45,932 nt of DNA from Eubacteriales bacterium (GTDB lineage Bacteria; Bacillota; Clostridia; Lachnospirales; Lachnospiraceae). The stretch covers positions 1 to 45,932 of the forward strand of contig JAUNGB010000038.1 of the NCBI GenBank assembly GCA_030524715.1, written 5' to 3'. The number at the start of each line of letters is the position of its first letter. Position 1 is the first letter of the stretch. The position numbers and the translations under genes are program-made. Shown piece by piece: positions 17,977 through 41,770 of this stretch. The notes beneath the pieces were generated by a model that did not search any database, was not told where the DNA came from, and saw nothing but the letters and a program-made list of their open reading frames with translations.

Positions 17977-18052
17977 GGTTGTTGCTGTTTAGATCCGGGC
18001 CTTGTACCGGGTTATGGAACAGGAACTACACTCTGAGAAGGGAGGACTCTTC

Positions 18053-18700
18053 ATGAAGAAAGAGAAATTTAAAAACGGATTGATGCTTTTTGCATTCTTT
18101 TTTAAAATAGGCTGCTTTACCTTTGGGGGCGGCTGGAGTATTCTGGCGCAGATGGAACAGGAATTTGTAGTTAAAAAAAAGCTTATCAGCAAGGAAGAAC
18201 TGCTTGACTTGGTAGCTGTAGGGAAATCCGTACCGGGGATTATGATCACAAATATCAGTATGCTGTTCGGGTATCAGGTAGGAGGCTGGTTCGGCGGCGT
18301 CTGTGCGGTATTGGGAATTGTCTGCCCGGCTGTCCTGATCTTATCTGCCGTAGCCTATGGGTACGATTACCTGAAATCCAATGTCTGGTGCCGGTACGCT
18401 CTGGAAGGAATACAGGCGGCAGTCGTTCCCATTATTGGCTGTGCCGCTCTTTCCCTGGGCAAAGAGGTTTTCCGTACCAGAAAAGGCCGGGTTGTATGTC
18501 TGCTTGCGTTTCTTGCATGCGTATTTACACAGGTCAGCAACGTGGTCCTGGTTCTGATCGGCGTTGCGGCAGCTCTGATCCTTCCGGACAGTCCAGTACT
18601 ACAGCAGACAGCAGAAGCGCAGTCCGGTACAAAAATGTTTGCCCGTATAAAAAGAAGATTTGTTGATGAGAAGGGAGGAACAAAGAATGGTATATCTTGA
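18053..18700 (+). CDS. Half-size chromate transporter family (CHR) protein, first of pair
   Basis: A 215-residue membrane protein of the CHR (ChrA) superfamily with about six helices. The signature FFKIGCFTFGGGWSILAQM occurs near residue 15, followed by a P-G-rich VGKSVPGIMITNISMLFGY. Short-chain CHR proteins act as pairs of antiparallel halves, and here the second half overlaps by 14 bp. Known members export chromate, but in gut Clostridia the true substrate is unproven. The ATG at 18053 follows GGGAGG. An upstream in-frame extension to 18002 has no such site. Confidence 0.88.
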   Translation: MKKEKFKNGLMLFAFFFKIGCFTFGGGWSILAQMEQEFVVKKKLISKEELLDLVAVGKSVPGIMITNISMLFGYQVGGWFGGVCAVLGIVCPAVLILSAVAYGYDYLKSNVWCRYALEGIQAAVVPIIGCAALSLGKEVFRTRKGRVVCLLAFLACVFTQVSNVVLVLIGVAAALILPDSPVLQQTAEAQSGTKMFARIKRRFVDEKGGTKNGIS

Positions 18701-19241
18701 AATCTTTTTTTCTTTTGTCAAAATCGGTTTTACCAGTTTTGGGGGAATGTCCATGATTCCGCTGATTCTGGAGGAAATGGAAAAGCATTCCTGGATGACG
18801 GCGGAGGATCTTACCAATTTGGTAGCCATAGCGGAAATGACGCCGGGCCCTTTGGGGATAAATTGCGCCACATTTGCCGGAACACAGACAGCGGGAGTTT
18901 TAGGAGGCGTGATCGCGGTAGCGGGAGTTCTGACGCCTGCATTTACCCTGACCCTGCTTGTGGCGGTTTTTTTCACAAGGTTTAAAAAAAGCAGAGTCAT
19001 GCAAAAAATAATGAGCTATGTAAAGCCTGTCTGTATCGCCATGATCCTGGCAGTGATTCTTACGCTCAGCGAAGAAAATTACAGTATGGAAGGAAAACCT
19101 GACTGGATTGCTGTGGGGATCGGCCTTGTTATGTTCTTCCTGATCCAGAAGAGAAAATGGTCTGTTCCCAAGGTTATTGGGTGTTCGGCAGTTCTTGGAA
19201 TTGTTTTGTACGGCATCGTTCCTCAGCTTAGGCCTTTTTGA
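18687..19241 (+). CDS. Half-size chromate transporter family (CHR) protein, second of pair
   Basis: A 184-residue CHR-family membrane protein. It has FVKIGFTSFGGMSMIPLIL at the N-terminus and IAEMTPGPLGINCATFAG, the counterparts of the motifs in the preceding gene. It starts inside the end of that gene (ATG 18687, with GGGAGG upstream), so the two are translationally coupled and likely form a heterodimer. The C-terminus is short and hydrophobic. Substrate as for its partner is unproven. Confidence 0.88.
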   Translation: MVYLEIFFSFVKIGFTSFGGMSMIPLILEEMEKHSWMTAEDLTNLVAIAEMTPGPLGINCATFAGTQTAGVLGGVIAVAGVLTPAFTLTLLVAVFFTRFKKSRVMQKIMSYVKPVCIAMILAVILTLSEENYSMEGKPDWIAVGIGLVMFFLIQKRKWSVPKVIGCSAVLGIVLYGIVPQLRPF

Positions 19242-19269: not shown

Positions 19270-19361
19270 GCGGTATACTTTGAACTGTCTGGCAAATTTC
19301 TTGTTTTACGCAAAAGGGTGTGGTAAAATTATTGGAAACACACATGAAGGTGGAAGAAGAT

Positions 19362-21776
19362 ATGGACAGTAATCGTATGAATTACAGCGTACAAAGAGCG
19401 GCTGCCGGGGAAGAGAACATCGGAACCGGCCTTCTTATTATGTGCCTGTTGGAAGGCGAGATGACGCTGCAATATCAGGGGGAGCGATACCGGATGAAGC
19501 GGGAGGATGTGTTATTGATTAATCCGGGCGTCAGTTATACGATCCGTGATGTGAACCATGCAGTGTATGGGGAAGCCTCATTTTCCATAAGGATGATAAC
19601 GGAAGTGCTGCAGAGCAATCGTAAATTCTTTTATTGTAATTCGGTGGTGGATAACAGTCATTCCTATCAGGATCTGCGGGACATTTTTTTCCAGCTTACC
19701 GTGGAATATATTTCCCGCACACATCAGAGCAGATGTTATATGGACAGTCTGCTCTTAAAACTATTGGATTGCCTTGTGGAACATTATCAGCCTGACCAGA
19801 AAGCTATGGAAATATATGAGACTGAAAATGACGCGAGGATGAGAGAAATCATGCAGTATATTATCACTAATCTGGACCAGGAGATCAGTTTGAACGAACT
19901 GGCGGAGAAGATGTTCGTATCTGCATCTACATTGTCGCGTATTTTTAAGAAAAATACCGGAGAGTATTTTGCTGATTATGTGATGCAGCTCAGAGTTAAG
20001 AATGCTGTAAGTCTTCTGGAGCATTCCGGACAGAATATGCTGCAGATAGCGGTTGCTTGCGGGTTTGCTAATTCTGCTTCCTTTAACAGAGCGTTCCGCA
20101 AGATCATGGGAGTAACTCCTACAGAGTATCGGGAAGCATACCAGAGCAGCAGGGAACAAGAAGAGAAAATATCTGCTCCTGAACCGGATATTTGTAAGGA
20201 ACTAAGGCAGAAGGGGTATGAGTTTGGCAAGAAGGAACGGGAAGAAATGCTCCGTCTCGACCTGAAGAACAATCAGGGGCGAAAGTATCAAAAGCCGTGG
20301 AATCTGATGATCAATATCGGCCCGATCTGGGATTTGAATCAGGCTAATGTACAGTTTCATACATTGTATTTAAATGAGCAGCTTCATTTTCAATATATCA
20401 GGCTCTGGAATGTTTTTTCCAGAAAAATGATGATCAACAATGGAAAAACGATCGGACAGTACAATTATGATGCGGTTAATCAGGTGCTGGATTTTCTTGT
20501 ACAGCATCGGCTGAAACCGTTTCTTGATCTGGGACGCAGACCGGATACGGCGCTTCGCTCTTTTAGGAACGAAGTATTTTTTGAGGAACAATATATACCC
20601 TTTGAATCCAGAGAAAACTGGGAATGCATGATAGAAGATTTTTTCAGCCATATTGTATCCCGCTACGGGCAGGAAGAGGTATCCGGTTGGGTTTTTGAAC
20701 TAAGCCGTGATTGCATTCATGGAGATAGTCTGCCTCAATACCGCCTGTATCAGGAGGAACAGTATGATTTTTTCGATGCATGGAGATATCTCTGGCAGAC
20801 AGTCAAAAAGAAGATACCAGCCGCCAGATTTGGAGGAGTTACAGGGATTGTGGTCAAAGACTGGAAGTTTTTGCTTGACTTTTATAAAAGATGTAATACG
20901 GAAAATGTCAGGCCGGATTATGTGTCTTTTCTCATGTTTCCTTATGACGTCCGCAGTAATCAGGAAACACAGACAACGAGGATCCTTTCACAGGATAAGG
21001 AATATGAAGAGAACCAGATCCGTGAGATACGGAAGCTGCTGAAACAGACCGGAATGGAAGAAACGCCGCTTTATATTACGGAGTGGAATAATACGATCTC
21101 CAACAGGAACTATCTCAATGACAGTTGTTACCGGGCCGCTTATATTGTGAAAAAGGCAGCAGCGATTTCAGAGCAGGTGGATATGTTGGGAATCATGGGC
21201 GGAACAGACTGGGTATCCAGCCATATGGATACGGTTGGAATCGTGAATGGCGGAATTGGTCTGCTGACGAAGGACACCATTAGAAAGCCGGCATATTTTG
21301 CAGTCGATTTTCTGAATCAGCTTGGAGATTATCTTCTGGCGAAAGGGGAGAATTATATTGCCACCCGGAAGGAAAACGGCGACATTTATATTCTCTGTTA
21401 TTATTATTCATGGTTCAAAAGAAGTTATTTCCTTGAGGAAGAGGATGTTGATCTGCGGAAATATCATTCTTTAGTATTTGAAGAGGAAGAGCCCCTTCAT
21501 TTGAATATCCGGCTGGAAAATCTAAAAGAAAGTGGAGAATATTATCTGAAAAAGCGTACTTTAAACAGGAGGCACGGGAGCATACTGAATGAATGGGAAG
21601 AGTTTCAGTACGACGTCCGGCTTACAAGGCAGGATGTGAAATATTTGCAGGGAATCAGTTTCCCGACGCTTTCCCAGAGCCGGAAAGTGGTGACAAAGGG
21701 GAATCATACGTTGGATATGAAAGTGACCATGGAACCGCATGAGATCAGCCTGATCCATATTTTTTGCAGAACATAA
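19362..21776 (+). CDS. AraC family regulator fused to a degenerate GH39-like domain
   Basis: A protein of about 804 residues. An N-terminal cupin-like sensor (about 1-140) is followed by an AraC DNA-binding domain (about 155-260) with two helix-turn-helices: ISLNELAEKMFVSASTLSRI and MLQIAVACGFANSASFNRAF. About 500 residues resembling a glycoside hydrolase family 39 TIM barrel complete it. Where active GH39 xylosidases have W-x-F-E-x-W-N-E-P, this protein has GWVFELSRD, so the acid/base Asn-Glu is missing; a TEWNN near the nucleophile position remains. I infer a sugar-sensing, non-catalytic domain. The start is uncertain: ATG 19362 has AGGTGG eight bases upstream, while 19344 or GTG 19320 would add 6 or 14 residues. 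It precedes the C-glycoside operon and probably controls it. Confidence 0.83.
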   Translation: MDSNRMNYSVQRAAAGEENIGTGLLIMCLLEGEMTLQYQGERYRMKREDVLLINPGVSYTIRDVNHAVYGEASFSIRMITEVLQSNRKFFYCNSVVDNSHSYQDLRDIFFQLTVEYISRTHQSRCYMDSLLLKLLDCLVEHYQPDQKAMEIYETENDARMREIMQYIITNLDQEISLNELAEKMFVSASTLSRIFKKNTGEYFADYVMQLRVKNAVSLLEHSGQNMLQIAVACGFANSASFNRAFRKIMGVTPTEYREAYQSSREQEEKISAPEPDICKELRQKGYEFGKKEREEMLRLDLKNNQGRKYQKPWNLMINIGPIWDLNQANVQFHTLYLNEQLHFQYIRLWNVFSRKMMINNGKTIGQYNYDAVNQVLDFLVQHRLKPFLDLGRRPDTALRSFRNEVFFEEQYIPFESRENWECMIEDFFSHIVSRYGQEEVSGWVFELSRDCIHGDSLPQYRLYQEEQYDFFDAWRYLWQTVKKKIPAARFGGVTGIVVKDWKFLLDFYKRCNTENVRPDYVSFLMFPYDVRSNQETQTTRILSQDKEYEENQIREIRKLLKQTGMEETPLYITEWNNTISNRNYLNDSCYRAAYIVKKAAAISEQVDMLGIMGGTDWVSSHMDTVGIVNGGIGLLTKDTIRKPAYFAVDFLNQLGDYLLAKGENYIATRKENGDIYILCYYYSWFKRSYFLEEEDVDLRKYHSLVFEEEEPLHLNIRLENLKESGEYYLKKRTLNRRHGSILNEWEEFQYDVRLTRQDVKYLQGISFPTLSQSRKVVTKGNHTLDMKVTMEPHEISLIHIFCRT

Positions 21777-21888
21777 GAAAGCGAGTCTTGAACAGATATG
21801 CAGAGCTTCGTTTTGGAGGTATGTCAGCGCATCTGACTAGAATCCTGCTTTAGAATGTGTTTGTGAGAATAGAAAATGAAAAGGACAG

Positions 21889-21938
21889 CCGCCCGTGCAA
21901 CAGATGATGTCGATCTGTTGCACGGGCAGTTTTTTTTG
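21889..21938 (+). terminator. Intrinsic terminator after the AraC/GH39 regulator
   Basis: A perfect 15-bp stem (GCCCGTGCAACAGAT with ATCTGTTGCACGGGC), a 7-nt loop, then AGTTTTTTTT. It separates the regulator's transcript from the transporter operon. Confidence 0.93.
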
Positions 21939-22079: not shown

Positions 22080-23438
22080 ATGGAGAAAAAACGCAAAGCC
22101 ACAAAAGCGGCCACAATCTGTTATGGATTTGGTGATCTGGCTTCTCAGTTTGTATGGACGTATGTGGGATCTTACTTAACCATCTATTACACGGATATCG
22201 TAGGTCTGGTGCCAATCGCAGTTTCGGTGATCATGATGCTTGCACGGATCTGGGATGCGGTCAATGATCCGATGATGGGTGCGATCGCAGAGAGAACCAG
22301 ATCCCGGTTCGGTCGTTTCCGTCCGTACATTGCATTTGGCGCTCCGCTGCTTGCAATTTTCAGCGTACTGACCTTTACGAATCCCTTCGGGGGTAGTTCG
22401 GCCGCGGGCGTGATCTGGGCAGGAGCGATCTACATTATAGCAGGAATGTTGTATACACTGGTAAATATCCCGTATGGCGCGCTTGCAGCCGTTATGACGG
22501 AAGATGCAGATCAGCGGAACGTGCTGAACACATCCAGAAATATCGGAATGAATCTGGGTATGGTGATCGTAAACGGAGTATCGGCAGGACTTGCCCTGAA
22601 ATTTTCCGGAGCAGGCGCAGAAGTTGCAAATGGACACGGGTACATGATGGTGGCATTGATCTATGCGATTATTTCTGTACCAATGTTCCTGGTCGTATTC
22701 TTTACCTCCAGGGAGGTAGTACAGCCGGTGGGAAATCCGCAGACCTTCTCCTTTAAGGATACGGTCAGTAATCTGGTAAAGAACAAATATCTCATGATCA
22801 TTACGCTGATCATGGCGCTGCAGATGACCGCTTTCATGGGGAGAATCGCAGTTACCAGCTATTATGTGATCTACTGTTTGGGTTCCTTTACGATGATCGC
22901 GCTGATCATGACCATCCCGTCTATCGGCGGCATCATTGGCTCCTTCTTTGTTCCGTTCTTTGCAAAAAAAATCGGAAAAAGAAATGTGCTGATGGGTTCC
23001 ATGATCATTCAGGGAATCGGATTACTCATCATGTATCTGGCGCCTTTTGACAACATGAAGATGGTACTGGCAGGCGATATCATTTTCGGACTGTTCAATG
23101 TAGGTTTTCCAATGAGTTTGTCTATGGTTGCAGATTCTGTGGACTATATGGAATTAAAGGCAGGCGTTCGGACAGACGGCACGGCATATGCAACCTATGG
23201 TCTTGCAACAAAATTCGGAAATGCGGTAGGCGGCGCGTTTGGAATTATGATCATGAGCGCGTTCGGATATGTGGCAAATGCCGAGCAGACAGCCGGAGCG
23301 CTGAAAGGTATTAATATTACGGTGAATCTGATCCCTGCGATCATCTTTTTCCTTGCGGCGGCAGTATGCCTGCTCTGGAACATGAGTGATAAGGATGCAG
23401 ATGATATCCGGGCACAGTTAAGAGAAAAATATAAATAA
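22080..23438 (+). CDS. GPH-family (MelB-like) sugar:cation symporter
   Basis: A 452-residue protein with twelve predicted membrane helices of the glycoside-pentoside-hexuronide:cation symporter family. Typical motifs are [12 protein letters not shown] at the N-terminus, [29 protein letters not shown] after helix 2 and the mid-protein YVIYCLG region. It would import a glycoside with Na+ or H+. Being first in an operon with C-glycoside deglycosidase-type genes, its likely cargo is an intact C-glycoside or a related plant glycoside, by inference. AGAGGT lies before the ATG. The next gene starts 16 bp after its stop. Confidence 0.9.
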
Positions 23439-23454
23439 AAAAGGAGACAGAAAC

Positions 23455-24327
23455 ATGTATACATATAATAAAAAAGGCCCAAAGCGCGGTGTGGCGCTGT
23501 ACAGTTATTCCGCTGAATTTGGAATGACAAAGACACTGGAAGACTGCTTTGAGGATCTCTGTGACATGGGCGCCCATGGAGTGGAGATCTTAGCAAACAC
23601 GCATATTGAAAACTATCCGTATCCTACGGATGAATGGGTGGAAAAATGGTGGCGTCTCTGTGATAAATATGAAATTGTTCCCGTGGAATACGGTAACTGG
23701 ATCGACTCTCATGTGCTCGGCGGCAGAGATCTGACAACAGAGGAATCTGTGGAGATGTTAAAAAGAGATATCCGTCTGGCACACCGGTTGGGATTTACGG
23801 TGATGCGTACCAAGATGCCTGTGATCAACGACCTTCTGGAGCCGGTAAAGAACTGGCGCGAGATCATCAAAGGCGCGCTTCCGCTGGCGGAAGAACTGGG
23901 GATCAAGATGTGTCCGGAGATCCATACCCCTTCTAATCTGAAAGGAAAACTGGTTACAGATTTTGTGGATTTTATCAAAGAAACAGAAACGAAGAATTTT
24001 GGACTGAATATTGACTTTTCCGTATTTCGTACGGAATTTAAGGAAGGAGAATGGAAGGATCCGAACTATACCCCGAATCAACCGGAAGATATCATCCCGT
24101 TACTTCCGTATATCTATTGCTGCCATGCGAAATTTATCAATATGAGCGATGATTTCCAGGAGACGACCATTCCATATCCGGAGATCATCCGAGTGATGCA
24201 GGAGCATGGATATGAGGGATATCTTCTCAGCGAATATGAAGGCGCAGACAAATATGATGATGGCTATGAAGTAGGACAGACTTTAAGAAAACAGCATATC
24301 ATGCTGAAAAATTTATTGGGAGATTAA
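23455..24327 (+). CDS. Putative C-glycoside deglycosidase alpha subunit (TIM-barrel isomerase fold)
   Basis: A 290-residue protein of the sugar phosphate isomerase/epimerase (AP-endonuclease 2-like TIM barrel) superfamily. Likely divalent-metal ligands are Glu155 in CPEIHTP, Asp187 in LNIDFSV, His224 in YCCHAKF and Glu260 in LLSEYEG. In C-glycoside deglycosidases this fold is the catalytic alpha subunit, which cleaves the C-C bond of a 3-oxo-C-glucoside with Mn2+. The assignment rests mainly on the neighbour: a DUF6379 beta subunit starts 10 bp downstream. Alone, it could be called only an isomerase-like protein. AAGGAG precedes the ATG. Confidence 0.78.
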
Positions 24328-24337
24328 GGAGGACATT

Positions 24338-24781
24338 ATGGAAAAACAGGTAATTCAGTCAGTTGGTTTCAGAAACAGAAAGGATGAAGCAGGGAACGTA
24401 ACCGGTTTTCAGTTTAAGGTAAGACTGCCGTATTACAGGGGAATTTTCCTGTCACAGATCCGTCCGGGAACTCTGTATGTAGACGGAGAGAAGATTGAAA
24501 AAGAACAAATTGTCTGGAATATCAACGGTGAAGATTATACAAATGAGGAAATGGAAACGGATTTCCAGACACACTGGTCCGTTACGACGCCGGCAGTGTT
24601 AAAGGTGAAAAAAGAGGGAGGTTTAAGTCAGGGATATCACGATCTGAAGTATGGCTTCTGTTTTACCTCGTCTTATATGCCGCCGATTGTTCAGGATCAT
24701 CTTGATCCGGATCAGGAAAGCATGATATTTATGCCGGAATTCGGACACCACGTAAATGAGAGAAGGCTGCTGATCGTATGA
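24338..24781 (+). CDS. Putative C-glycoside deglycosidase beta subunit (DUF6379)
   Basis: A 147-residue beta-rich protein. The stretch VTGFQFKVRLPYYRGIFLSQ, then LYVDGEK, matches what I know of the DUF6379/C-glycoside deglycosidase beta-subunit family (small partners in DgpBC, CarBC and DfgAB complexes), and so does the length. The beta subunit packs on the TIM-barrel subunit to shape the active site. It is translated right after the alpha-like gene with AGGAGG before its ATG, so stoichiometric co-expression is likely. No signal peptide is present. The family call is from memory of the family's motifs. Confidence 0.78.
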   Translation: MEKQVIQSVGFRNRKDEAGNVTGFQFKVRLPYYRGIFLSQIRPGTLYVDGEKIEKEQIVWNINGEDYTNEEMETDFQTHWSVTTPAVLKVKKEGGLSQGYHDLKYGFCFTSSYMPPIVQDHLDPDQESMIFMPEFGHHVNERRLLIV

Positions 24782-24837
24782 CCACTGTATAACATATACA
24801 GGATTCGGAATGAAAAAAGAAAGCGAGGAATAAAAAA

Positions 24838-25677
24838 ATGAGTAAAAAACTTCCAGTTGGTATTCAGGTGTATGGGTTGAGAGATCTTCTGGAGAATACG
24901 CCGGAAAATTTTAAGGATGTTATGCTGAAAGTAAAAGCGATGGGATATGACGGGGTAGAGCTTGCCGGGTTATACGGACTGCAGCCGGAATACATCAAAG
25001 AAGTTCTTGACGAAGCAGGACTGGTTCCGGTCAGCGCCCATGTGGCATTTGCGGAAATGATGGAGAATCTGGACCAGATCATTCAGGATTATTCTGCGAT
25101 CGGTGTGAAATATCTGGTTATGCCATATATGGCAGAGGAATACCGGCCGGTGAATCCGGAAGGGTTTGAGAAGTTTCTTCCGCTTCTGAATGAGGTCGGA
25201 AAGAAAATCCATGATGCAGGCATGACATTTTTGTACCACAATCATGATTTTGAATTTGTAAAGCTTCCGGACGGCAGATGGGGGTATGACGCCATGTTTG
25301 AGGCAATCCCCCACGATCATCTGATGTCGGAACTGGATACCTGCTGGTGTGATGTTGCAACCGGTCAGGCGGCAGAATTTGTCCGAAAGTATACAGGGCG
25401 GATCCCGGTGGTACATCTGAAAGATTACATCAAAAAGGGTGAAGTAAAAAATATGTATAAGCTCATCGGTATTGATACGGATGAAGAGGAAGGGGATACC
25501 GGATATTTCGGATTCCGTCCGGTGGGCTTTGGACAGATGGTCTGGGAAGAAATTCTGGACGCATCCGTGGAAGCAGGAGCGGAATGGGTGATCGTAGAGC
25601 AGGATGAACACTATGAAACAGATCCGCTGGAATGCGCAGGAAGAAGCCGTGAATACCTGAAAATCCTCGGCTGGTAG
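24838..25677 (+). CDS. Sugar phosphate isomerase/epimerase family protein
   Basis: A 279-residue TIM-barrel protein with the conventional metal site of the family: Glu139 in YHNHDFEF, Asp167 in SELDTCW, His193 in VVHLKDY and Glu254 in VIVEQDE. The YHNHDFEF motif is typical of 3-keto-sugar or inosose-handling members. It is a different subfamily from the deglycosidase-type alpha subunit two genes upstream. In this operon it may isomerise or release the oxidised sugar (3-oxo-glucose chemistry), or act as a 3-keto-glycoside hydratase/lyase. That role is inferred. GAGG lies upstream of the ATG, 56 bp after the previous stop. Confidence 0.85.
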   Translation: MSKKLPVGIQVYGLRDLLENTPENFKDVMLKVKAMGYDGVELAGLYGLQPEYIKEVLDEAGLVPVSAHVAFAEMMENLDQIIQDYSAIGVKYLVMPYMAEEYRPVNPEGFEKFLPLLNEVGKKIHDAGMTFLYHNHDFEFVKLPDGRWGYDAMFEAIPHDHLMSELDTCWCDVATGQAAEFVRKYTGRIPVVHLKDYIKKGEVKNMYKLIGIDTDEEEGDTGYFGFRPVGFGQMVWEEILDASVEAGAEWVIVEQDEHYETDPLECAGRSREYLKILGW

Positions 25678-25738
25678 AAATGAAAATGAGCAGAAATGAT
25701 GTAGAAATGATCTGGAAATGATAAGGAGATAAATTGAG

Positions 25739-27019
25739 ATGAAAGAAATCAGAATTGCAATTATCGGAACGGGAATGATTTCCCACAGACATATGACCGT
25801 GATCCGGAACCTTCAGGAAAAAGGCCAGGCATTGAAAGTCGTTGCCGCAGCGGAAATTGACAAAAACAAGCTGGAAGCATTTGGAAAACAGTATGGGATA
25901 CCGGAAGAAAATCTGTATCAGGATTTCCGTGAAATGTTAAAGAGGGACGATATTGACGAGGTAGAAGTATGCGTGCATAACAATCTCCATACATCTGTGG
26001 CGACTGCTGTAATGGAAGCGGGATTTGACTGCTATTCGGAAAAACCGATGGCGGCCAGCTATGCGGACGCGAAAATTCTGTACGATGCACAGAAAAAATA
26101 CGGGAAAAAACTGGCGGTACAGATCAGTTCCATCTATAATCCGCAGACACGGATCGCGAAGAAAATGATCGAAGAGGGAAAACTCGGAAAAGTATACCAC
26201 GTCAGAAGCGTGGGGCACAGACGGCAGGGACGTCCCGGCTATGATATGCCGTTCTTCAGTCAGGACTTTATCAATCCAAAGGTCGGCGTACACGGTCCTC
26301 TCTTTGATCTGGGAATCTACCATCTTGCACAGATGCTTTACGTGCTCGGAATGCCGGAGCTGGAAAGCGTATACGGTTTCCAGTCCTGCGACTATTGGAC
26401 TGATGAGAGAATCGATAAGATCACACACCGGACTGCCCCGGTGGAAGATCTCGGCGTAGGCATGGCTCGCTTCAAAGGCGGACTGTCCATGGATATTTTT
26501 GAAGACTGGGCAATGCATATGGATGAGATCGGAACAAGCTTTATCGCAGGCTCACAGGGCGGCCTGAAATTCATAGACGTGGATACCACAGGAGGCCCGC
26601 TGGCAGTCCCCAAGGGCGGCACGATTGTAGGAGGCGGCGCGCTGCAGAATCCAAAGCTGATGTGGTTCGGCGTTGATGCGGACGGAAATCTGTTTGAGAA
26701 CAAACTGGATTGCGCCATCGGGGATATTACCGGCCAGCAGGAACTGATGCTCCATCCGGAGATGGAGAAGTATAACGATAACCAGCTTCAGTGGTATTCC
26801 TATCTCAGGGGAGAACTGGACGATACAACAAGGATTGATTCTCCGTATATCGCAATGCAGACAGCGTTTCTTTCCGAGGGCGTGGTACTTTCCAGCGAAC
26901 TCGGGCGCAGCGTAACGGCAGAGGAGATCAAAGCGCTGTCTAAATCTATTGCGCTTCGGGAGCAGGAGACTCCTTTTGGAACGATCAAGTACAATTTTGA
27001 CGAATATAAACCGGAATAA
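25739..27019 (+). CDS. Gfo/Idh/MocA family NAD(P)-dependent oxidoreductase (first)
   Basis: A 426-residue oxidoreductase. The Rossmann motif GTGMISHRH lies at residues 10-18, the family EKP motif is in YSEKPMAASYA, and the C-terminal alpha/beta domain has DLGIYHLAQML. It is longer than the typical 330-370 residues. In C-glycoside operons such an enzyme oxidises the C3 hydroxyl of the glucosyl group, which allows C-C cleavage, or re-reduces the released 3-oxo-glucose. Two paralogues here would suit both steps. Which does which cannot be told from sequence. AAGGAG precedes the ATG. Confidence 0.88.
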   Translation: MKEIRIAIIGTGMISHRHMTVIRNLQEKGQALKVVAAAEIDKNKLEAFGKQYGIPEENLYQDFREMLKRDDIDEVEVCVHNNLHTSVATAVMEAGFDCYSEKPMAASYADAKILYDAQKKYGKKLAVQISSIYNPQTRIAKKMIEEGKLGKVYHVRSVGHRRQGRPGYDMPFFSQDFINPKVGVHGPLFDLGIYHLAQMLYVLGMPELESVYGFQSCDYWTDERIDKITHRTAPVEDLGVGMARFKGGLSMDIFEDWAMHMDEIGTSFIAGSQGGLKFIDVDTTGGPLAVPKGGTIVGGGALQNPKLMWFGVDADGNLFENKLDCAIGDITGQQELMLHPEMEKYNDNQLQWYSYLRGELDDTTRIDSPYIAMQTAFLSEGVVLSSELGRSVTAEEIKALSKSIALREQETPFGTIKYNFDEYKPE

Positions 27020-27025
27020 GAATTA

Positions 27026-27081
27026 TGCAGAGCGTAGTCGGTAACGGCGTGCAGTGGGATAGCGCAGGCTGCGCTCTGTAT
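27026..27081 (+). other. Intergenic hairpin between the two oxidoreductase genes
   Basis: GCAGAGCG and CGCTCTG flank a 35-40 nt loop in the 89-bp gap before the next start codon. No T run follows. It may stabilise or process the operon mRNA. Confidence 0.4.
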
Positions 27082-27108
27082 GGAATCGAATGAATGGAGG
27101 ATGAAAAT

Positions 27109-28182
27109 ATGGCAGAAGAAATCCGTATGGCGATCATAGGCCATGGATTTATGGGACATGAGCATGAAAAAATGCTCGGCGATTTTCCGGGGATCAAACT
27201 GGTTGGGATCGCTGACAGAGATCCAAAACAATTGGAAGATGTAAAAGATGGAATCAAGAGGTACCAGAGTAATGAAGAACTATTTGCGGATCCGGATGTG
27301 GACGTCGTGATCATTGCCGCAAATAATAATCAGCACCATGATCTGGTGATTCAGGCGGCAGAGGCAAAAAAAGACATTATCTGTGAAAAACCTCTGGCGA
27401 TGAGCCTGAAGGAACTGGATGAGATGGAAGCCGCTGTCCGGGAAAACGGCGTAAAATTTACCGTTCATCAGCAGAGGCGCTTTGATCCGGATTTCCGCAC
27501 GGCAAAGGCAGTATACGATTCCGGCACGCTGGGGGAGGTGTACGCCATAAAGAATCAGCTTTATGGTTTTAACGGAAACATGCATGACTGGCATGTCCTG
27601 GTAAGCGAAGGCGGCGGAATGCTGTATGACTGGGGAGTGCATCTGTTAGATCAGGTATGCTGGATGTTCCCCGGGGCGAAACTGAAAACTGTATTTGCAG
27701 ATATCCGTAATGTAATTAACAAAGAAGTAGACGATTATTTCAATATCATGCTCCGGTTCGATAATGGTGTAACAGCCACGGTGGAGCTGGGAACATATTA
27801 TCTGGCGGATAAGGTGCAGGACAAATGGTTTGAGCGGCACTGGTTTGTGGCAGGAAATAAAGGAACCGCTTATGTAGATGGATTCTTTCCGGAAGGAAAG
27901 ATTGTCCGTACAACCAGCCTGCTGACCAATGTAGGAGGACAAAGGACGATGACTGCCGCTGGCCCGACAAGATCCTTCGGACCGGCGCCGGAAGGAAGGA
28001 TTGTTACAGAGCCGCTTCCGGAGGTGCATACAGAACACAGAAATTACTTTGAAAACTATGTGAAGGCCTATCGGGGCGAAGAGGAATTTTTAGTAAAGAT
28101 CCCGGAGGTGCGCAGAGTGTTAAGGCTGATGGACGCTGTGCGTGAATCCGGACGCACTGGCAGATCAATAGATTTTGAATAG
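27109..28182 (+). CDS. Gfo/Idh/MocA family NAD(P)-dependent oxidoreductase (second)
   Basis: A 357-residue oxidoreductase with the N-terminal nucleotide motif IIGHGFMGHEHEK, ICEKPLAMSL as the family EKP motif, and YDWGVHLLDQVCW as the substrate-side D-x3-H motif. I start at ATG 27109 because GGAGG lies eight bases before it; an ATG 15 bp upstream overlaps that site. It is the last gene of the operon, followed by a terminator. It probably works with the first oxidoreductase on 3-oxo-sugar intermediates (inference). Confidence 0.88.
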   Translation: MAEEIRMAIIGHGFMGHEHEKMLGDFPGIKLVGIADRDPKQLEDVKDGIKRYQSNEELFADPDVDVVIIAANNNQHHDLVIQAAEAKKDIICEKPLAMSLKELDEMEAAVRENGVKFTVHQQRRFDPDFRTAKAVYDSGTLGEVYAIKNQLYGFNGNMHDWHVLVSEGGGMLYDWGVHLLDQVCWMFPGAKLKTVFADIRNVINKEVDDYFNIMLRFDNGVTATVELGTYYLADKVQDKWFERHWFVAGNKGTAYVDGFFPEGKIVRTTSLLTNVGGQRTMTAAGPTRSFGPAPEGRIVTEPLPEVHTEHRNYFENYVKAYRGEEEFLVKIPEVRRVLRLMDAVRESGRTGRSIDFE

Positions 28183-28188
28183 AAACGA

Positions 28189-28239
28189 AAAAGAGAGGGA
28201 TAAACTGCCCACAGAAGCAGCATCCCTTTCTTTTTTTTG
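28189..28239 (+). terminator. Terminator of the C-glycoside operon
   Basis: AAAGAGAGGGAT pairs with ATCCCTTTCTTT around a 20-nt loop, ending in eight T residues. It closes the transcript begun before the symporter. Confidence 0.85.
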
Positions 28240-28370: not shown

Positions 28371-28673
28371 ATGAAGATCGAAAAGCCGGCGATGGCAGGG
28401 ACATTGGAATCCAGCGACTGTCAGGTTACTGTAGAAGCAGGGGAAGGAAAAATTGATTTTTCGCTGGAAAGTGCGGTGATCAACCAGTATGGAAATCAGA
28501 TCCGGAAGGTTGTATATGAGACATTGGATAACCTGGGAGTACGGGATGTAAGAATCACGATTATTGACAAAGGAGCGTTGGACTGTACCATCAGGGCGCG
28601 TGTGGAAGGCGCGGTATTCCGTTCTCTGGGACAGACAGAGCATTTGCCGTGGGGAGGTGCTATCAGATCATGA
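28371..28673 (+). CDS. citD: Citrate lyase acyl carrier protein (gamma subunit)
   Basis: A 100-residue protein. The prosthetic-group serine lies in AMAGTLESSDCQV (Ser14 or Ser15), where a phosphoribosyl-dephospho-CoA arm is attached. The remainder (FSLESAVINQYGNQIRKVV and LDCTIRARVEGAVFRS) matches CitD. It carries the acetyl/citryl thioester for the alpha and beta subunits in the cytoplasm. AGGAGG precedes the ATG. Its stop codon overlaps the citE start (ATGA), so the two are coupled. The genes that make and attach the arm (citX, citG) are not in this window. Confidence 0.95.
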   Translation: MKIEKPAMAGTLESSDCQVTVEAGEGKIDFSLESAVINQYGNQIRKVVYETLDNLGVRDVRITIIDKGALDCTIRARVEGAVFRSLGQTEHLPWGGAIRS

Positions 28674-29569
28674 ATCCGAATAAAAAACGATTAAGAAGAA
28701 CGATGATGTTTTTAAACGCACAGAAACCGGGATTGATCAAGGATCCTTATATTTATAAGCCGGATTCCATTATGTTGGATCTGGAGGATGCGGTTGCGGA
28801 AAATCAGAAGGATGCGGCGAGGTTTTCTCTGTATCATGCGCTGCAGGAGATCGATTACCGCGGAGTGGAAAGAGTAGTGAGAATCAACGCCCTGGATACC
28901 CCTTATTGGAGAGAGGATATCCGATGCGCCGTAGCAGGCGGCTGTGACGCTATCCGCATTCCAAAGACGGAATGCGCCAATGATGTAAAAATCGTAGAAA
29001 GCGCCGTAGAATACGCGGAGAAGGAATTCGGACGTCCCAGGGACAGCGTTCTCATTATGGCGGCGATCGAATCCGCAAGAGGGGTTATGAAAGCTCTTGA
29101 GATCTGCGAAGCATCGGAAAGACTGTTTGGAATCGCCTTATCCGGCGGAGATTATACAAAGGATCTTCAGACCCATATTACAGGAACCGGAATCGAGCTG
29201 ATGGGAGCAAGGCAGAATCTGGTGATAGCGGCCAGGGCGGCAGGAATCCAATGCTTTGATACGGTATACACGGATCTGAACAATATGGACGGCTTCCGCC
29301 AGGATGTGCAGAACATTCATCTGATGGGATTTGACGGAAAATCCATTATCAATCCACGCCAGATCAACATTGTACATGAAATCTTCACCCCATCTGAAAA
29401 GGACATCATATTTGCTGAAAAGGTAGTGAAGGAAATTGATTCAAAGAAAGCGCAGGGAATCGGCGTATTTACTGTAGACGGCAAAATGATCGACATTGCG
29501 TTTTATGACGGGGCTAAAAGAACGATCGAGCTTGCAAAGGCTTCAGGTGTGTATAAGGGGGATTTGTAA
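28670..29569 (+). CDS. citE: Citrate lyase beta subunit (citryl-ACP lyase)
   Basis: A 299-residue CitE that cleaves citryl-ACP to oxaloacetate and acetyl-ACP. It has the barrel motifs MFLNAQKPGL, PDSIMLDLEDAVAENQKDAAR, RIPKTECANDV, LIMAAIESARGVM and GGDYTKDL. The acidic residues of LDLEDAV and the Glu of AAIES bind Mg2+. ATG 28670 overlaps the citD stop. A start 21 bp upstream is possible but lacks a well-placed site. citF follows one base after its stop. Confidence 0.95.
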   Translation: MNPNKKRLRRTMMFLNAQKPGLIKDPYIYKPDSIMLDLEDAVAENQKDAARFSLYHALQEIDYRGVERVVRINALDTPYWREDIRCAVAGGCDAIRIPKTECANDVKIVESAVEYAEKEFGRPRDSVLIMAAIESARGVMKALEICEASERLFGIALSGGDYTKDLQTHITGTGIELMGARQNLVIAARAAGIQCFDTVYTDLNNMDGFRQDVQNIHLMGFDGKSIINPRQINIVHEIFTPSEKDIIFAEKVVKEIDSKKAQGIGVFTVDGKMIDIAFYDGAKRTIELAKASGVYKGDL

Positions 29570-29570
29570 A

Positions 29571-31136
29571 ATGAGAAACGCAGCAGGAAGAGAGATACCG
29601 GATGAGATTCTGGAAATTACAGGAAAAGAAGTATTTCACGGAAACCATTATTATGACGGCTATGAATACAAAAAGGACGGCCCCAGGACAAAATGCGTGA
29701 TCAACTCTAACGGAAGCAAGCTGGTGGACAGTATTCATGAGGTGTTGGTAAAGTGTGGGATTAAAGACGGCATGACGCTTGGCTTCCATCATCATTTCAG
29801 AGAGGGAGATTTCATTGTAAATATGGTCATGGAGGAAGTCCACAATATGGGGATCAAGGACATCACCATCTGCGCCAGCTCTCTCGGCAAAGCCCATGAC
29901 CCGATCGTGCCTTATATTGAAGACGGAACAATTACCAATATCCAGTCCTCCGGCGTGCGGGGAAAAATCGGAGAAGCGATCTCCAACGGAAAGCTGAAGG
30001 GACTTGCGATCATGCGTTCTCACGGCGGACGGGTGCGCGCTATCGAGTCCGGTGAAACGAGGATTGATATTGCTTTTATCGGAGCGCCTACCTGTGACGA
30101 TTACGGCAACTGTCGGGGAATCGGCGGAAAGAGTAACTGCGGAGTGCTGTCCTATGCGATGGTAGACGCGGATTATGCAGATAAGGTAGTGGCGATCACT
30201 GACTGCCTTGTTCCGTTCCCCAACTTCCCGGCTCATATCAGCATGACAAAAGTGGATTACGTTGTGGTTGTAGATGAGATCGGCGACCCCAAAAAGATCG
30301 CGACAGGGGCCGCGAAGCCTACAACAGATATGAGAAAGCTGATGATGGCGGACTACTGTACAAAATTTGTTGTCAATACCCCTTATTTTAAAGATGGTTT
30401 CTCCTATCAGACGGGTGTGGGCGGAGCCTCCATCGCTTCGACGATCTCTCTTGCAAAGATCATGAAAGAGCGAAACGTGAGGATGAAATTCGGAGTGGGA
30501 GGCCTGACTAAACCCATGTGCGACCTGCTGATCAACGGCCAGGTGGACTGCCTTCTGGATACGCAGGATTTTGACCTGGATGCTGTGGAATCAGTAAAAA
30601 GCCTCAACCATTTCCGCATCAGCGCCGGGGAATATGCAGACCCGTTCAACAAGGGCGCAGTAGTAAACAAACTGGATTTCGTAATTCTGGCCGCATTGGA
30701 GGTTGATGTTAATTTTAACTGTAATGTAGTCGTAGGCTCCGACGGAATGATCACCGGAGCGCAGGGCGGCCATCCGGACACGGCGGAAGGAGCGAAATGC
30801 TCTATTGTCATTGCACCTCTTCTTCAGGGAAGAATTCCGGCGATCTGTACAGACGTCACGACTGTCACAACGCCCGGAGAAAGTGTGGACGTAGTTATTA
30901 CCGATTATGGCATTGCGATCAATCCCAGAAGACAGGATCTGATCGAGGCCATGAAGGATGTGGATCTTCCGTTTAAGACCATTGAGGAGCTTCGGGACAT
31001 TGCCTATTCCATTGCGGGAGAGCCGCAGAGAGTACAGTTCGGGGACAGAGTTGTAGGAATTATCGAAAGCCGTGACGGAACTATTATGGATGTTGTACGA
31101 CAGATAAAACCATTTGAATTTGCGGAGGCAGAGTGA
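29571..31136 (+). CDS. citF: Citrate lyase alpha subunit (citrate:acetyl-ACP transferase)
   Basis: A 521-residue CitF, the subunit that swaps acetyl for citryl on the ACP. Full length and intact, with MRNAAGREIPDEI at the start, GFHHHFREGDFIVNMVM, SHGGRVRAIESGE, IAFIGAPTCDDYGN and GAQGGHPDTAEGAKC. With CitD and CitE it completes the lyase. The ATG lies one base after the citE stop with AAGGGGG upstream. A terminator follows. No citC ligase is adjacent, which is unusual, as most bacterial operons run citCDEF. Confidence 0.95.
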   Translation: MRNAAGREIPDEILEITGKEVFHGNHYYDGYEYKKDGPRTKCVINSNGSKLVDSIHEVLVKCGIKDGMTLGFHHHFREGDFIVNMVMEEVHNMGIKDITICASSLGKAHDPIVPYIEDGTITNIQSSGVRGKIGEAISNGKLKGLAIMRSHGGRVRAIESGETRIDIAFIGAPTCDDYGNCRGIGGKSNCGVLSYAMVDADYADKVVAITDCLVPFPNFPAHISMTKVDYVVVVDEIGDPKKIATGAAKPTTDMRKLMMADYCTKFVVNTPYFKDGFSYQTGVGGASIASTISLAKIMKERNVRMKFGVGGLTKPMCDLLINGQVDCLLDTQDFDLDAVESVKSLNHFRISAGEYADPFNKGAVVNKLDFVILAALEVDVNFNCNVVVGSDGMITGAQGGHPDTAEGAKCSIVIAPLLQGRIPAICTDVTTVTTPGESVDVVITDYGIAINPRRQDLIEAMKDVDLPFKTIEELRDIAYSIAGEPQRVQFGDRVVGIIESRDGTIMDVVRQIKPFEFAEAE

Positions 31137-31145
31137 TACCTTAAA

Positions 31146-31192
31146 AAAGAGGGGCAGGTGATTCCTTACTGAGGAACCGCTGCCCTTCTTTG
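31146..31192 (+). terminator. Terminator after citF
   Basis: AAGAGGGGCAG pairs with CTGCCCTTCTT, with an inner ATTCCT/AGGAA stem. The T tract is short. In the remaining gap up to 31310, GGAAATATT occurs twice and nothing else stands out. Confidence 0.6.
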
Positions 31193-31309
31193 CTCATTGG
31201 TACTACAGAGAAGATCATGTCCGGTTAGTGATCGGGAACACCGGTCAGACATTCGTGGAGGCGTCCTTTCTTATTTCCTTATAGGAAATATTTTTCTTAC
31301 AGGAAATAT

Positions 31310-31996
31310 TCAGGGAAGGAACCGATATCCCAGTCCCCGTACAGTAATGATATGTGCGGGATTCTGGCGGTTATCCTCGATTTTGCTGCGGAGACGGTTA
31401 ATGTATACCATGATCGCATTGTCATCAATAGCCACCGTATTTCCCCATACGTGCTCATAAATCATATCCTTTGTGAAAACCTGCTGGGGATGTTTCATAA
31501 ACAGCAGAAGAAGCGTCCCCTCCTTGGAGGAAAGGATCAGTTCCTCTCCGTTTTTGTAAAAACGCATGGTAGAGGTATCATAAGTAAAAGGACCACATTT
31601 AAGGGTATCCGGATTGTCAAGGATCATGTTCTTGTTTCTGCGGATCAGGGCCTTAACCTTGGCGCCAAGTACAAGAGGGCGGAACGGCTTTGTGATATAA
31701 TCGTCAGCGCCGAGGGATAACCCGTAGAGGGAATCGTAGTCCTCATTTCTTCCGCTTATAACCATGATCGGAGTAGAGATCCCCTGACCGCGGATTGTTT
31801 TAATGACGTCAAAGCCTTCCATATCACCCAGCATAATGTCCAGCAGGATAATATCAAATGTATGTGTTTTAATGATGGCTAATGCCTCCGAACCGGAATG
31901 GACAACCGTGGTTTCCAGATCATTGCTGCGCATTACCTTTTCCAGAAGCCTGCAGATTGCCGGGTCGTCGTCTGCGATCAGTACTTTATCTGCCAT
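31310..31996 (-). CDS. OmpR/PhoB-type response regulator
   Basis: A 228-residue protein. The receiver domain (1-120) has the acidic trio Asp9-Asp10-Asp11, phospho-acceptor Asp53 in ILLDIMLGDMEG, a Ser in MVISGRNED and Lys in YITKPFRP. A winged-helix DNA-binding domain (about 132-228) ends with RLRSKIEDNRQNPAHIITVR and GLGYRFLP. It is divergent from a hybrid histidine kinase and separated by a repeat array that is its likely target. Position between citF and the CitMHS-type transporter suggests citrate or tricarboxylate control, an inference. GGGGGA lies before the ATG. Confidence 0.93.
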   Translation of the reverse strand: MADKVLIADDDPAICRLLEKVMRSNDLETTVVHSGSEALAIIKTHTFDIILLDIMLGDMEGFDVIKTIRGQGISTPIMVISGRNEDYDSLYGLSLGADDYITKPFRPLVLGAKVKALIRRNKNMILDNPDTLKCGPFTYDTSTMRFYKNGEELILSSKEGTLLLLFMKHPQQVFTKDMIYEHVWGNTVAIDDNAIMVYINRLRSKIEDNRQNPAHIITVRGLGYRFLP

Positions 31997-32023
31997 GAAT
32001 CAATCCCCCAAAACATAGAATAT

Positions 32024-32132
32024 TATACAAAAAGCTTACTCTTATAGAATAAAAAGCTTACTCTTATAAAAGCCTTCGTCTATAGAATAAAAAGCCTATG
32101 CTTATAGAATAAAAGCGCTTTCTCTTATAGAA
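32024..32132. repeat. Tandem array of about 22-bp repeats between the response regulator and kinase genes
   Basis: Imperfect direct repeats of CTTATAGAATAAAAAGC. Their TATA(G/A/C) cores start at 32024, 32043, 32065, 32081, 32103 and 32126, mostly about 22 bp apart (two helical turns). The last copy overlaps the predicted -35 of the kinase promoter, whose -10 TATAAT lies at 32151-32156. On the minus strand a TATAAT (32022-32027) serves the regulator, with the first full copy at its -35. The layout fits tandem binding of OmpR-type regulators. Confidence 0.7.
32112..32123. promoter_or_regulatory. cre-like catabolite box before the kinase gene
   Basis: AAAGCGCTTTCT, with the palindromic core AAAGCGCTTT of CcpA cre sites. 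The identical 12-mer occurs before the transporter gene at 34475. It lies inside the repeat array, 99 bp before the kinase start. Confidence 0.45.
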
Positions 32133-32210
32133 AAAACGTAACAACAATATTATAATAAAAATCAGGGAATCTGTAAAGAAATTAACGAAAGAAATCAGAG
32201 GAAGAAATGA

Positions 32211-34376: not shown

Positions 34377-34377
34377 G

Positions 34378-34460
34378 CAGTAAAAGCCCGGCAGCAAAAA
34401 AACAGTAAAAAAGCCAGCAGTAAAAGCCCATCAGTAAAAAAGCCAGCAGTGCAAAGCCCG
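34378..34460 (+). repeat. Tandem CAGTAAAA-GCC repeats after the kinase gene
   Basis: CAGTAAAA(AA)GCC units begin at 34378, 34403, 34418 and 34432, with a diverged copy at 34447, mostly 14-15 bp apart. They start two bases after the kinase stop and run toward the transporter promoter. The TAAAAAAGCC part resembles the repeats upstream of the kinase. Confidence 0.65.
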
Positions 34461-34474
34461 GCCTTAACATGTTT

Positions 34475-34509
34475 AAAGCGCTTTCTTAATGAATTGTAAG
34501 GAAGAAAGC
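34475..34509 (+). promoter_or_regulatory. cre-like box and inverted repeat before the citrate transporter
   Basis: AAAGCGCTTTCT (34475-34486) is identical to the box at 32112. Its right half GCTTTCTT also pairs with AAGAAAGC (34502-34509), giving an 8-bp inverted repeat. Catabolite repression of citrate uptake through CcpA is known in Bacillus; here it is inferred. Confidence 0.45.
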
Positions 34510-34586
34510 TTAGGCATGTAAGGTTGGGCTTTTATACTATAACCATCAGCTAAAGAAAAAAGAAAAGGAAACGGAGGAAACACATC

Positions 34587-40697: not shown

Positions 40698-40770
40698 TCT
40701 GCTATTGCTCCTGTTCATTTACAATGTATTTTTACTTCTATCTGATTTTGTTTTTAATAATATTTCTTAA

Positions 40771-41741: not shown

Positions 41742-41770
41742 AAAACGATAAAGAATTGGAGGAGATTATT

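Follow-up and report, generated by a model that had tools for sequence, protein, structure and literature searches.

The six-gene locus studied here is, judging from its sequence, the known dfgABCDE flavonoid deglycosylation operon of Eubacterium cellulosolvens in another bacterium, probably one of the Lachnospiraceae, and the pathway that it would encode is not new. We give a probability of roughly 0.87 to the reading that the locus is an orthologue of that operon and works by the series of steps proposed below. dfgABCDE is already characterised; it removes sugars from plant flavonoids, including those attached by C-C bonds, and the find is mostly known. The first description of the operon was reportedly Braune 2016. 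That study is cited in PMC11170127, PMC8563793 and PMC12101588.

The window, that is, the whole stretch of DNA analysed (45,932 nt), contained the following features around the operon.

19320..21776, + strand: AraC-type regulator fused to a GH39-like domain, 818 aa
21887..21937, + strand: terminator-like stem-loop between the regulator gene and the operon (-31.2 kcal/mol, z -7.92, T8 tail)
22080..23438, + strand: GPH-family cation symporter, 452 aa (TIGR00792, 354.5 bits against a cut-off of 231.35)
23455..24327, + strand: dfgA, C-glycoside deglycosidase alpha subunit (TIM barrel, metal site), 290 aa
24338..24781, + strand: dfgB, C-glycoside deglycosidase beta subunit, 147 aa (PF19906)
24838..25677, + strand: dfgC, second TIM barrel, probable 3-keto-O-glucoside beta-eliminase, 279 aa
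25739..27019, + strand: dfgD, Gfo/Idh/MocA oxidoreductase, probable partner of DfgC, 426 aa
27094..28182, + strand: dfgE, Gfo/Idh/MocA oxidoreductase, probable C-glucoside 3-oxidase, 362 aa
28187..28236, + strand: terminator-like stem-loop at the operon end before citDEF (-23.7 kcal/mol, z -6.55, U-rich 3' arm)

All six open reading frames were confirmed on the + strand at 22080-28182, in the order originally noted (symporter, TIM barrel, small protein, second barrel and two oxidoreductases). The intergenic gaps were 16, 10, 56, 61 and 74 bp in order, the second being the 10 bp that had been noted between the alpha-like and beta-like genes. Pfam profiles matched the symporter (MFS_2, E = 1.9e-90), the small protein (CGDB, 1.9e-38), the two TIM barrels (AP_endonuc_2, 3e-19 and 1.5e-16), the two oxidoreductases (GFO_IDH_MocA, 1.2e-23 and 5.4e-28), and the regulator (Glyco_hydro_39, 3.8e-43; HTH_18, 8.7e-24; and an AraC_binding domain). 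Both stem-loops have T-runs and flank the six genes, and 0 of 200 shuffles was as good for each. By sequence, the unit would begin 3' of the regulator gene and stop before citDEF. Because of the two terminators, a single long transcript spanning the regulator and citDEF was rejected as the default, leaving room for read-through.

The dfgA product was 90.0% identical to the alpha subunit of crystallised EuCGD, which is the DfgAB of E. cellulosolvens (PDB 7bvs_A; 261/290 residues, full length, gapless), and the dfgB product was 80.3% identical to 7bvs_B (118/147, full length). The small protein matched PF19906, 'C-glycoside deglycosidase beta subunit', with 131.2 bits against a cut-off of 27.6 (E = 1.9e-38). 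Its PDB matches 9m3a_B and 8umc_B bear the title 'DUF6379 domain-containing protein'; DUF6379 and PF19906 are two names of one family, and the predicted membership in DUF6379 was confirmed. All seven metal and catalytic residues of the alpha chain were kept (E155, H157, D187, H224, K226, E260 and E262), and none of the 54 alpha rows aligned at more than 300 bits varied in these columns. When mapped by motif and spacing, AgCGD2 residues E147, D179, H269, K271, E305, H149 and E307 correspond to E155, D187, H224, K226, E260, H157 and E262 of the window, respectively. An ordinary sugar isomerase or epimerase lying beside an unrelated small protein would agree with the generic Pfam label AP_endonuc_2 and with the lack of any NCBIfam match for the alpha or beta protein. 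However, the PDB matches of the alpha protein at E<=1e-20 comprised eight distinct sequences, every one of which has a match to the window's beta protein as a partner chain or as a fused part, and the small protein belongs to PF19906. With such a partner and such deglycosidase alpha matches, the isomerase reading of the alpha gene was rejected as practically untenable. By sequence the alpha protein falls among the alpha chains of deglycosidases, as originally predicted, and not among ordinary isomerases.

The E. cellulosolvens operon was compared by way of the related locus L035, in which DfgA was identical to 7bvs_A at 290/290 residues and DfgB to 7bvs_B at 146/147. In the window A, B, C, D and E are adjacent, in an order shared with L035, and their products were 90, 80, 77, 80 and 88% identical to the L035 counterparts. 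The Mur ligase was just 62% identical between the window and the L035 genome, and the best full-length match to it in the 29 genomes holding relatives was 63%. The identity of DfgA and DfgB to EuCGD, the PF19906 match and the synteny with L035 support the original prediction of a candidate C-glycoside degradation operon; since the locus is a syntenic orthologue of known dfgABCDE, the word candidate understated its likelihood and overstated its novelty.

The predicted substrates are 6-C-glucosides (isovitexin, homoorientin), not puerarin, and mangiferin would probably be accepted as a 6-C-glucoside too. Residues L128 of alpha and P115 of beta, which are among the EuCGD residues that clash with orientin, a C8-glucoside, in the docking model described in PMC8563793, were both identical in the window, so that the C6-selective pocket is retained at the level of these residues. 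None of the C8-glucosides tested is accepted by EuCGD, whose pocket residues are preserved in the window; puerarin was therefore set aside as the first-choice substrate. The substrate had been left open; it is less so now, as residues and identity to EuCGD point to C6-glucosides, in a prediction made from sequence only. The natural substrate could instead be some other C- or O-glycoside, the pair applying the same chemistry to a different aglycone. Divergence of the regulator (49%) and the symporter (36%) from L035, far greater than that of the enzymes, would fit such a case, and PMC10628242 asks whether the wide occurrence of the enzymes fits the scarcity of the substrates. We nevertheless consider it unlikely, since the alpha and beta chains are 90% and 80% identical to those of EuCGD, and neither of the two pocket residues that PMC8563793 names in EuCGD has changed.

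DfgE appears by sequence to be a 3-oxidase of the DfgE type, being 88% identical to L035 DfgE and matching 9m37 ('P581a DgpA2 and isoorientin complex structure') best in the PDB, with 431 bits. For DfgC the best PDB match was AtOGE (8bvk; 104.6 bits, 6.7e-29), and all eight AtOGE residues were kept: H132, D163, H189 and E233 of the metal site, the catalytic H134, and E39, H66 and E161. They were invariant in 16 of 16 DfgC sequences (>300 bits, window included). The solved TIM barrels 8tcd, 8tcs and 8tct also matched DfgC (76-90 bits), which was counted against the main reading. DfgD matched DgpA 7xr9 best, with 92.6 bits. In E. cellulosolvens and C. scindens, according to PMC11170127, DfgC/DfgD deglycosylate O-glucosides. 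DfgC is a probable 3-keto-O-glucoside beta-eliminase of the AtOGE type, and the operon may carry two oxidation-elimination routes because DfgC keeps the eight residues of this beta-eliminase. Since activity of DfgC/DfgD on O-glucosides is reported, some genes of the operon need not serve C-C cleavage. The second TIM barrel and the first oxidoreductase, originally counted among the C-glycoside activities, correspond to the reported O-glucosidase pair.

We would give even odds to the view that the dfg operon is built of exchangeable oxidation-elimination cassettes, two in number: one of E and A-B, serving C-glucosides, and one of D and C, the latter a metal-dependent eliminase of the AtOGE type, serving O-glucosides. 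In the genomes of L038-L041 and L059, A-B-C-D was present and the best DfgE match reached only 1.0e-11 to 1.2e-14; DfgE is therefore not always the partner. If the operon is built of two such cassettes, both eliminases would be supplied by D or some other oxidoreductase in these Butyrivibrio-like genomes that have A-B-C-D and lack a DfgE orthologue. Over 44 loci, 19 of them cut short on a flank, C and D were both found in 15, E in 10 and all three in 2, against about 3.4 expected for all three if independent. No association of C-D with E can be read from these counts, and no clear avoidance either.

Alternatively, DfgC might hydrate 2-hydroxy-3-keto-glucal and DfgD reduce 3-keto-glucose to glucose, which would make a redox-neutral C-glycoside cycle; cleaving O-glucosides would then be a side activity. 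For the PUE, Agrobacterium and levoglucosan operons, PMC10628242 describes a predicted scheme that runs through oxidation, elimination, hydration and reduction. A cycle of this kind is consistent with C and D sharing one unit with A, B and E, and with the genomes that lack a DfgE orthologue keeping C-D alongside A-B. However, DfgC matched AtOGE at 6.7e-29, while the hydratase 8ro4 was absent among its six PDB hits at E<=0.001, and another TIM barrel, encoded at a separate place in the window's genome (L070:6359-7279), matched 8ro4 weakly (28.7 bits, with 2zds ahead at 57.6). O-glucoside deglycosylation by DfgCD is also reported in two species (PMC11170127), and we regard the hydratase and reductase roles as doubtful.

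A GPH gene was found near a close DfgA in 22 of the 44 related loci and an AraC/GH39 gene in 21, where 19 of the 44 have a flank cut to less than 6.5 kb on one side or more. Symporter and regulator are recurrent yet exchangeable neighbours. The symporter probably serves glycoside uptake, which need not match that of L035 because the two symporters share just 36% identity. The regulator is a probable sensor and activator, and its gene would have its own transcript. In its GH39 part, the ITEWN motif kept its Glu in 20 of the 23 rows aligned, the acid/base region being poorly aligned. The earlier description of the operon as apparently self-contained thus holds only in part, both genes recurring as counted above and neither TIM barrel of the window matching 8ro4, the solved 2-hydroxy-3-keto-glucal hydratase.

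In the proposed mechanism, the GPH symporter would import the glycoside, and the AraC/GH39 protein would probably sense it. DfgE would act on a 6-C-glucosyl flavone or xanthone and oxidise C3 of its glucosyl group, as is reported for the reference DfgE. In DfgA-DfgB, an active-site divalent metal and His157 would deprotonate C2, and the C-C bond would break by a beta-elimination-like step, giving the aglycone and 1,5-anhydro-D-erythro-hex-1-en-3-ulose. This type of mechanism was proposed in the literature for the family of EuCGD from structures and mutants of relatives, and its transfer to the window rests on identity and intact residues. DfgD would oxidise O-glucosides, from which DfgC would eliminate the aglycone by AtOGE-like chemistry, the O-deglucosylation by DfgCD being reported and its mechanism presumed. 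Hydration of the freed sugar would give 3-keto-glucose, and its reduction would give glucose; genes in other parts of the genome may serve these steps.

C-glycosides are resistant to ordinary glycosidases, and bacteria of the gut or rumen determine whether isovitexin-, homoorientin- or mangiferin-like compounds have their aglycones made available. A close five-gene orthologue widens the set of likely C-glycoside degraders, and the substrate class becomes predictable. If the arrangement in two cassettes is true, a single operon would need no hydrolase to break both the C- and the O-bonds of mixed flavonoid glycosides. If the O-activity of DfgC/DfgD is oxidation and beta-elimination, it would explain why two enzyme sets share an operon.

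Compared with known systems, the window has the same genes, order and alpha residues as dfgABCDE of E. cellulosolvens (EuCGD; PDB 7bvs, 7dre, 7exb) and, read via L035, an AraC/GH39 gene is upstream in both. In contrast, the symporter is upstream of A in the window and downstream of E in L035 (36% identical), the regulator is just 49% identical to that adjoining the L035 operon, and citDEF follows the terminator in the window. The dgpABC genes of strain PUE (PuCGD, 7bvr and 7exz; DgpA, 7xr9) use the same chemistry, with 3-oxidation by a Gfo/Idh/MocA protein and then elimination by an alpha/beta pair, but PuCGD is farther from the window, with 133 bits for alpha and 61 bits for beta against 627 and 279 bits for EuCGD, and its substrates are C8-glucosides such as puerarin (PMC8563793). 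AtOGE, the Agrobacterium O-glycoside beta-eliminase, has the same eight residues as DfgC but is distant in overall sequence, and according to PMC10628242 the oxidase in Agrobacterium is a flavoenzyme, whereas DfgD is of the Gfo type. Other islands of the window's genome encode close DgpA homologues. The Catenibacillus gene sets described in PMC11170127 resemble this genome in having several alpha/beta pairs and DgpA/DfgE homologues per genome; in that report the DgpA genes are separately located, and C. decagia has six dgpBC clusters, compared with 4 beta genes in the window's genome.

The six open reading frames at 22080-28182 and the AraC/GH39 gene upstream of them were found at the coordinates assigned in the original prediction. 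Family scans matched the six genes, in order, to MFS_2/GPH symporter, AP_endonuc_2 (DfgA, alpha), CGDB (PF19906; DfgB, beta), AP_endonuc_2 (DfgC, second TIM barrel) and twice to GFO_IDH_MocA (DfgD and DfgE). The small protein had been predicted to be of the DUF6379 type, and this held: it matched PF19906, the Pfam family 'C-glycoside deglycosidase beta subunit', and certain PDB relatives bear the title 'DUF6379'. Intergenic gaps within the unit were 10 to 74 bp, and two strong structures bracketed it:

21887-21937, terminator-like stem-loop on the 5' side, -31.2 kcal/mol, 0/200 shuffles as good
28187-28236, terminator-like stem-loop on the 3' side, -23.7 kcal/mol, 0/200 shuffles as good

A consensus terminator scan picked up the first and missed the second, whose loop is probably too long for it.

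Upstream of the regulator gene lies a tandem pair of overlapping Chromate_transp-family genes (18002-19241). On the other side, a probable citrate-use cluster adjoins the operon (28371-35930 and 41756-44029, coordinates for the whole group), with citD, a citE-like gene, citF, a response regulator, a hybrid histidine kinase, a CitMHS transporter and, farther along, an aconitase gene. A 1502-aa protein (36210-40718, minus strand) looks, on visual inspection, to have a signal-like N-terminus, along with repetitive segments and an acidic region rich in Pro, Ser and Thr; no match to it at E<=0.001 was found in Pfam or PHROGs.

In excerpts of PMC8563793, E147, D179, H269, K271 and E305 are the metal ligands of AgCGD2, and H149 and E307 are further named residues. 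Mapped by motif and spacing, the equivalents in DfgA were all present (E155, D187, H224, K226, E260, H157 and E262), and these columns were invariant in 54/54 alpha rows above 300 bits. The same excerpts describe a docking model of EuCGD, the crystallised DfgA-DfgB pair of Eubacterium cellulosolvens (PDB 7bvs), in which orientin clashes with residues including alpha L128 and beta P115. Both are kept here; position 128 is L in 52/54 of those alpha rows, and position 115 is P in all 45 beta rows above 180 bits.

The best match of DfgE among solved structures was 9m37, 'DgpA2 and isoorientin complex' (431 bits), a likeness that fits a C-glucoside 3-oxidase. DfgD was distant from DgpA (92.6 bits). 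According to excerpts of PMC11170127, DfgCD of E. cellulosolvens and C. scindens deglycosylated O-coupled flavonoid glucosides, and no C-deglycosylation was seen. The best solved relative of DfgC was AtOGE of Agrobacterium (8bvk, 6.7e-29), described in excerpts of PMC10628242 as a 3-keto-O-glucoside beta-eliminase, and its E39, H66, H132, H134, E161, D163, H189 and E233 were all kept in 16/16 DfgC sequences above 300 bits. DfgD would perform an oxidation and DfgC the elimination. We infer this mechanism of DfgC, as we do the substrate class, regulation, uptake and host family. DfgC also matched 8tcd, 8tcs and 8tct (76-90 bits), for which a literature search found no paper. The name 'DfgC' has 0 occurrences in the main text of PMC10628242.

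The assembly of the same genome (5.28 Mb, 210 contigs, 5.02% contamination) carried four PF19906 genes and two additional DfgE homologues (74% and 58%), plus weaker matches; the 58% homologue covers residues 2-219 and stops close to a contig end. Two other islands were found:

contig C167, L070:942-12405, second and larger C-glycoside island: GPH symporter, DgpA homologue, DfgE homologue, two alpha/beta pairs, TIM barrel, ROK glucokinase, AraC/GH39
contig C134, L071:190-10157, third island: beta, alpha (377 aa), close DgpA homologue, ABC transporter with SBP_bac_5 binding protein

The gene order on C167 is GPH, DgpA homologue, DfgE homologue, alpha, beta, TIM barrel, ROK glucokinase, AraC/GH39 and second alpha/beta pair. 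Its close DgpA homologue scored 519 bits to DgpA (7xr9), its TIM barrel was weakly similar to 2-hydroxy-3-keto-glucal hydratase (28.7 bits), and the alpha of its second pair was 60% identical to DfgA. On C134 the DgpA homologue scored 536 bits to 7xr9, and a DfgE-like gene is truncated near the contig end. With the genes of these two islands, the pathway could run through to glucose 6-phosphate and more substrates could be covered. PF19906 was carried by 10 of the 61 genomes searched (this one and 60 relatives), and the trait is therefore patchy.

Forty-eight loci were fetched using DfgA, of which 44 had a close DfgA by score cut (L062, L065, L066 and L067 were left out). The beta gene adjoined DfgA in 44/44; DfgC and DfgD were present in 15, DfgE in 10, all three in 2, a GPH symporter in 22 and an AraC/GH39 regulator in 21. 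Among the 25 loci whose two flanks each span 6.5 kb or more, the corresponding counts were 25, 11, 8, 2, 16 and 15. Identities to the window for DfgA, DfgC and DfgD were 70, 84 and 82% in L059 and 73, 84 and 83% in L060, the uncoupling that separate movement of A-B and C-D would be expected to give. A simple two-cassette picture is, however, countered by the genomes of L038-L041 and L059 (Butyrivibrio-type and related), which have A-B-C-D; a search of them for a DfgE orthologue found none, the best matches reaching 1.0e-11 to 1.2e-14. In these five loci the regulator and symporter accompany A-B-C-D, and in L040 and L059 an extra Gfo-like gene sits between D and A. In Olsenella profusa (Actinomycetota; L069:1246-9400), identities to the window were 73% for the symporter, 74% for DfgA, 79% for DfgB and 81% for DfgE, a likeness that suggests inter-phylum transfer. 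In the AraC/GH39 regulator, the ITEWN motif retained its Glu in 20/23 rows (the window gene at 19320-21776 and 22 related ones).

The sequence, order, residues, terminator-like structures and recurrence of the operon were observed directly, and literature reports of 3-oxidation, C-C cleavage and O-deglucosylation concern orthologues. DfgA and DfgB were identical to EuCGD alpha and beta at 261/290 and 118/147 positions. One fetched locus, L035 (titled Eubacterium sp. RUI459), matched 7bvs at 290/290 (DfgA) and 146/147 (DfgB), and was therefore used as a stand-in for the E. cellulosolvens operon. A quick tree was built from 76 alpha proteins, and the tool warned of long branches in other parts of it; DfgA of the window and L035 fell together among 29 rows that form a starred set (97% SH-aLRT).

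The operon is real and well supported, and adds a member to an already known kind of operon. In both loci AraC/GH39 comes first and A to E follow one another in alphabetical order; GPH stands between AraC/GH39 and A in the window and after E in L035. The enzymes of the two were 90.0 (A), 79.6 (B), 77.1 (C), 80.3 (D) and 87.8% (E) identical, whereas the regulators were 49.3% and the symporters 35.8% identical. The Mur ligase encoded at 13135-14505 and its counterpart in the L035 genome shared 62% identity, thus the operon enzymes are more alike than this single housekeeping protein.
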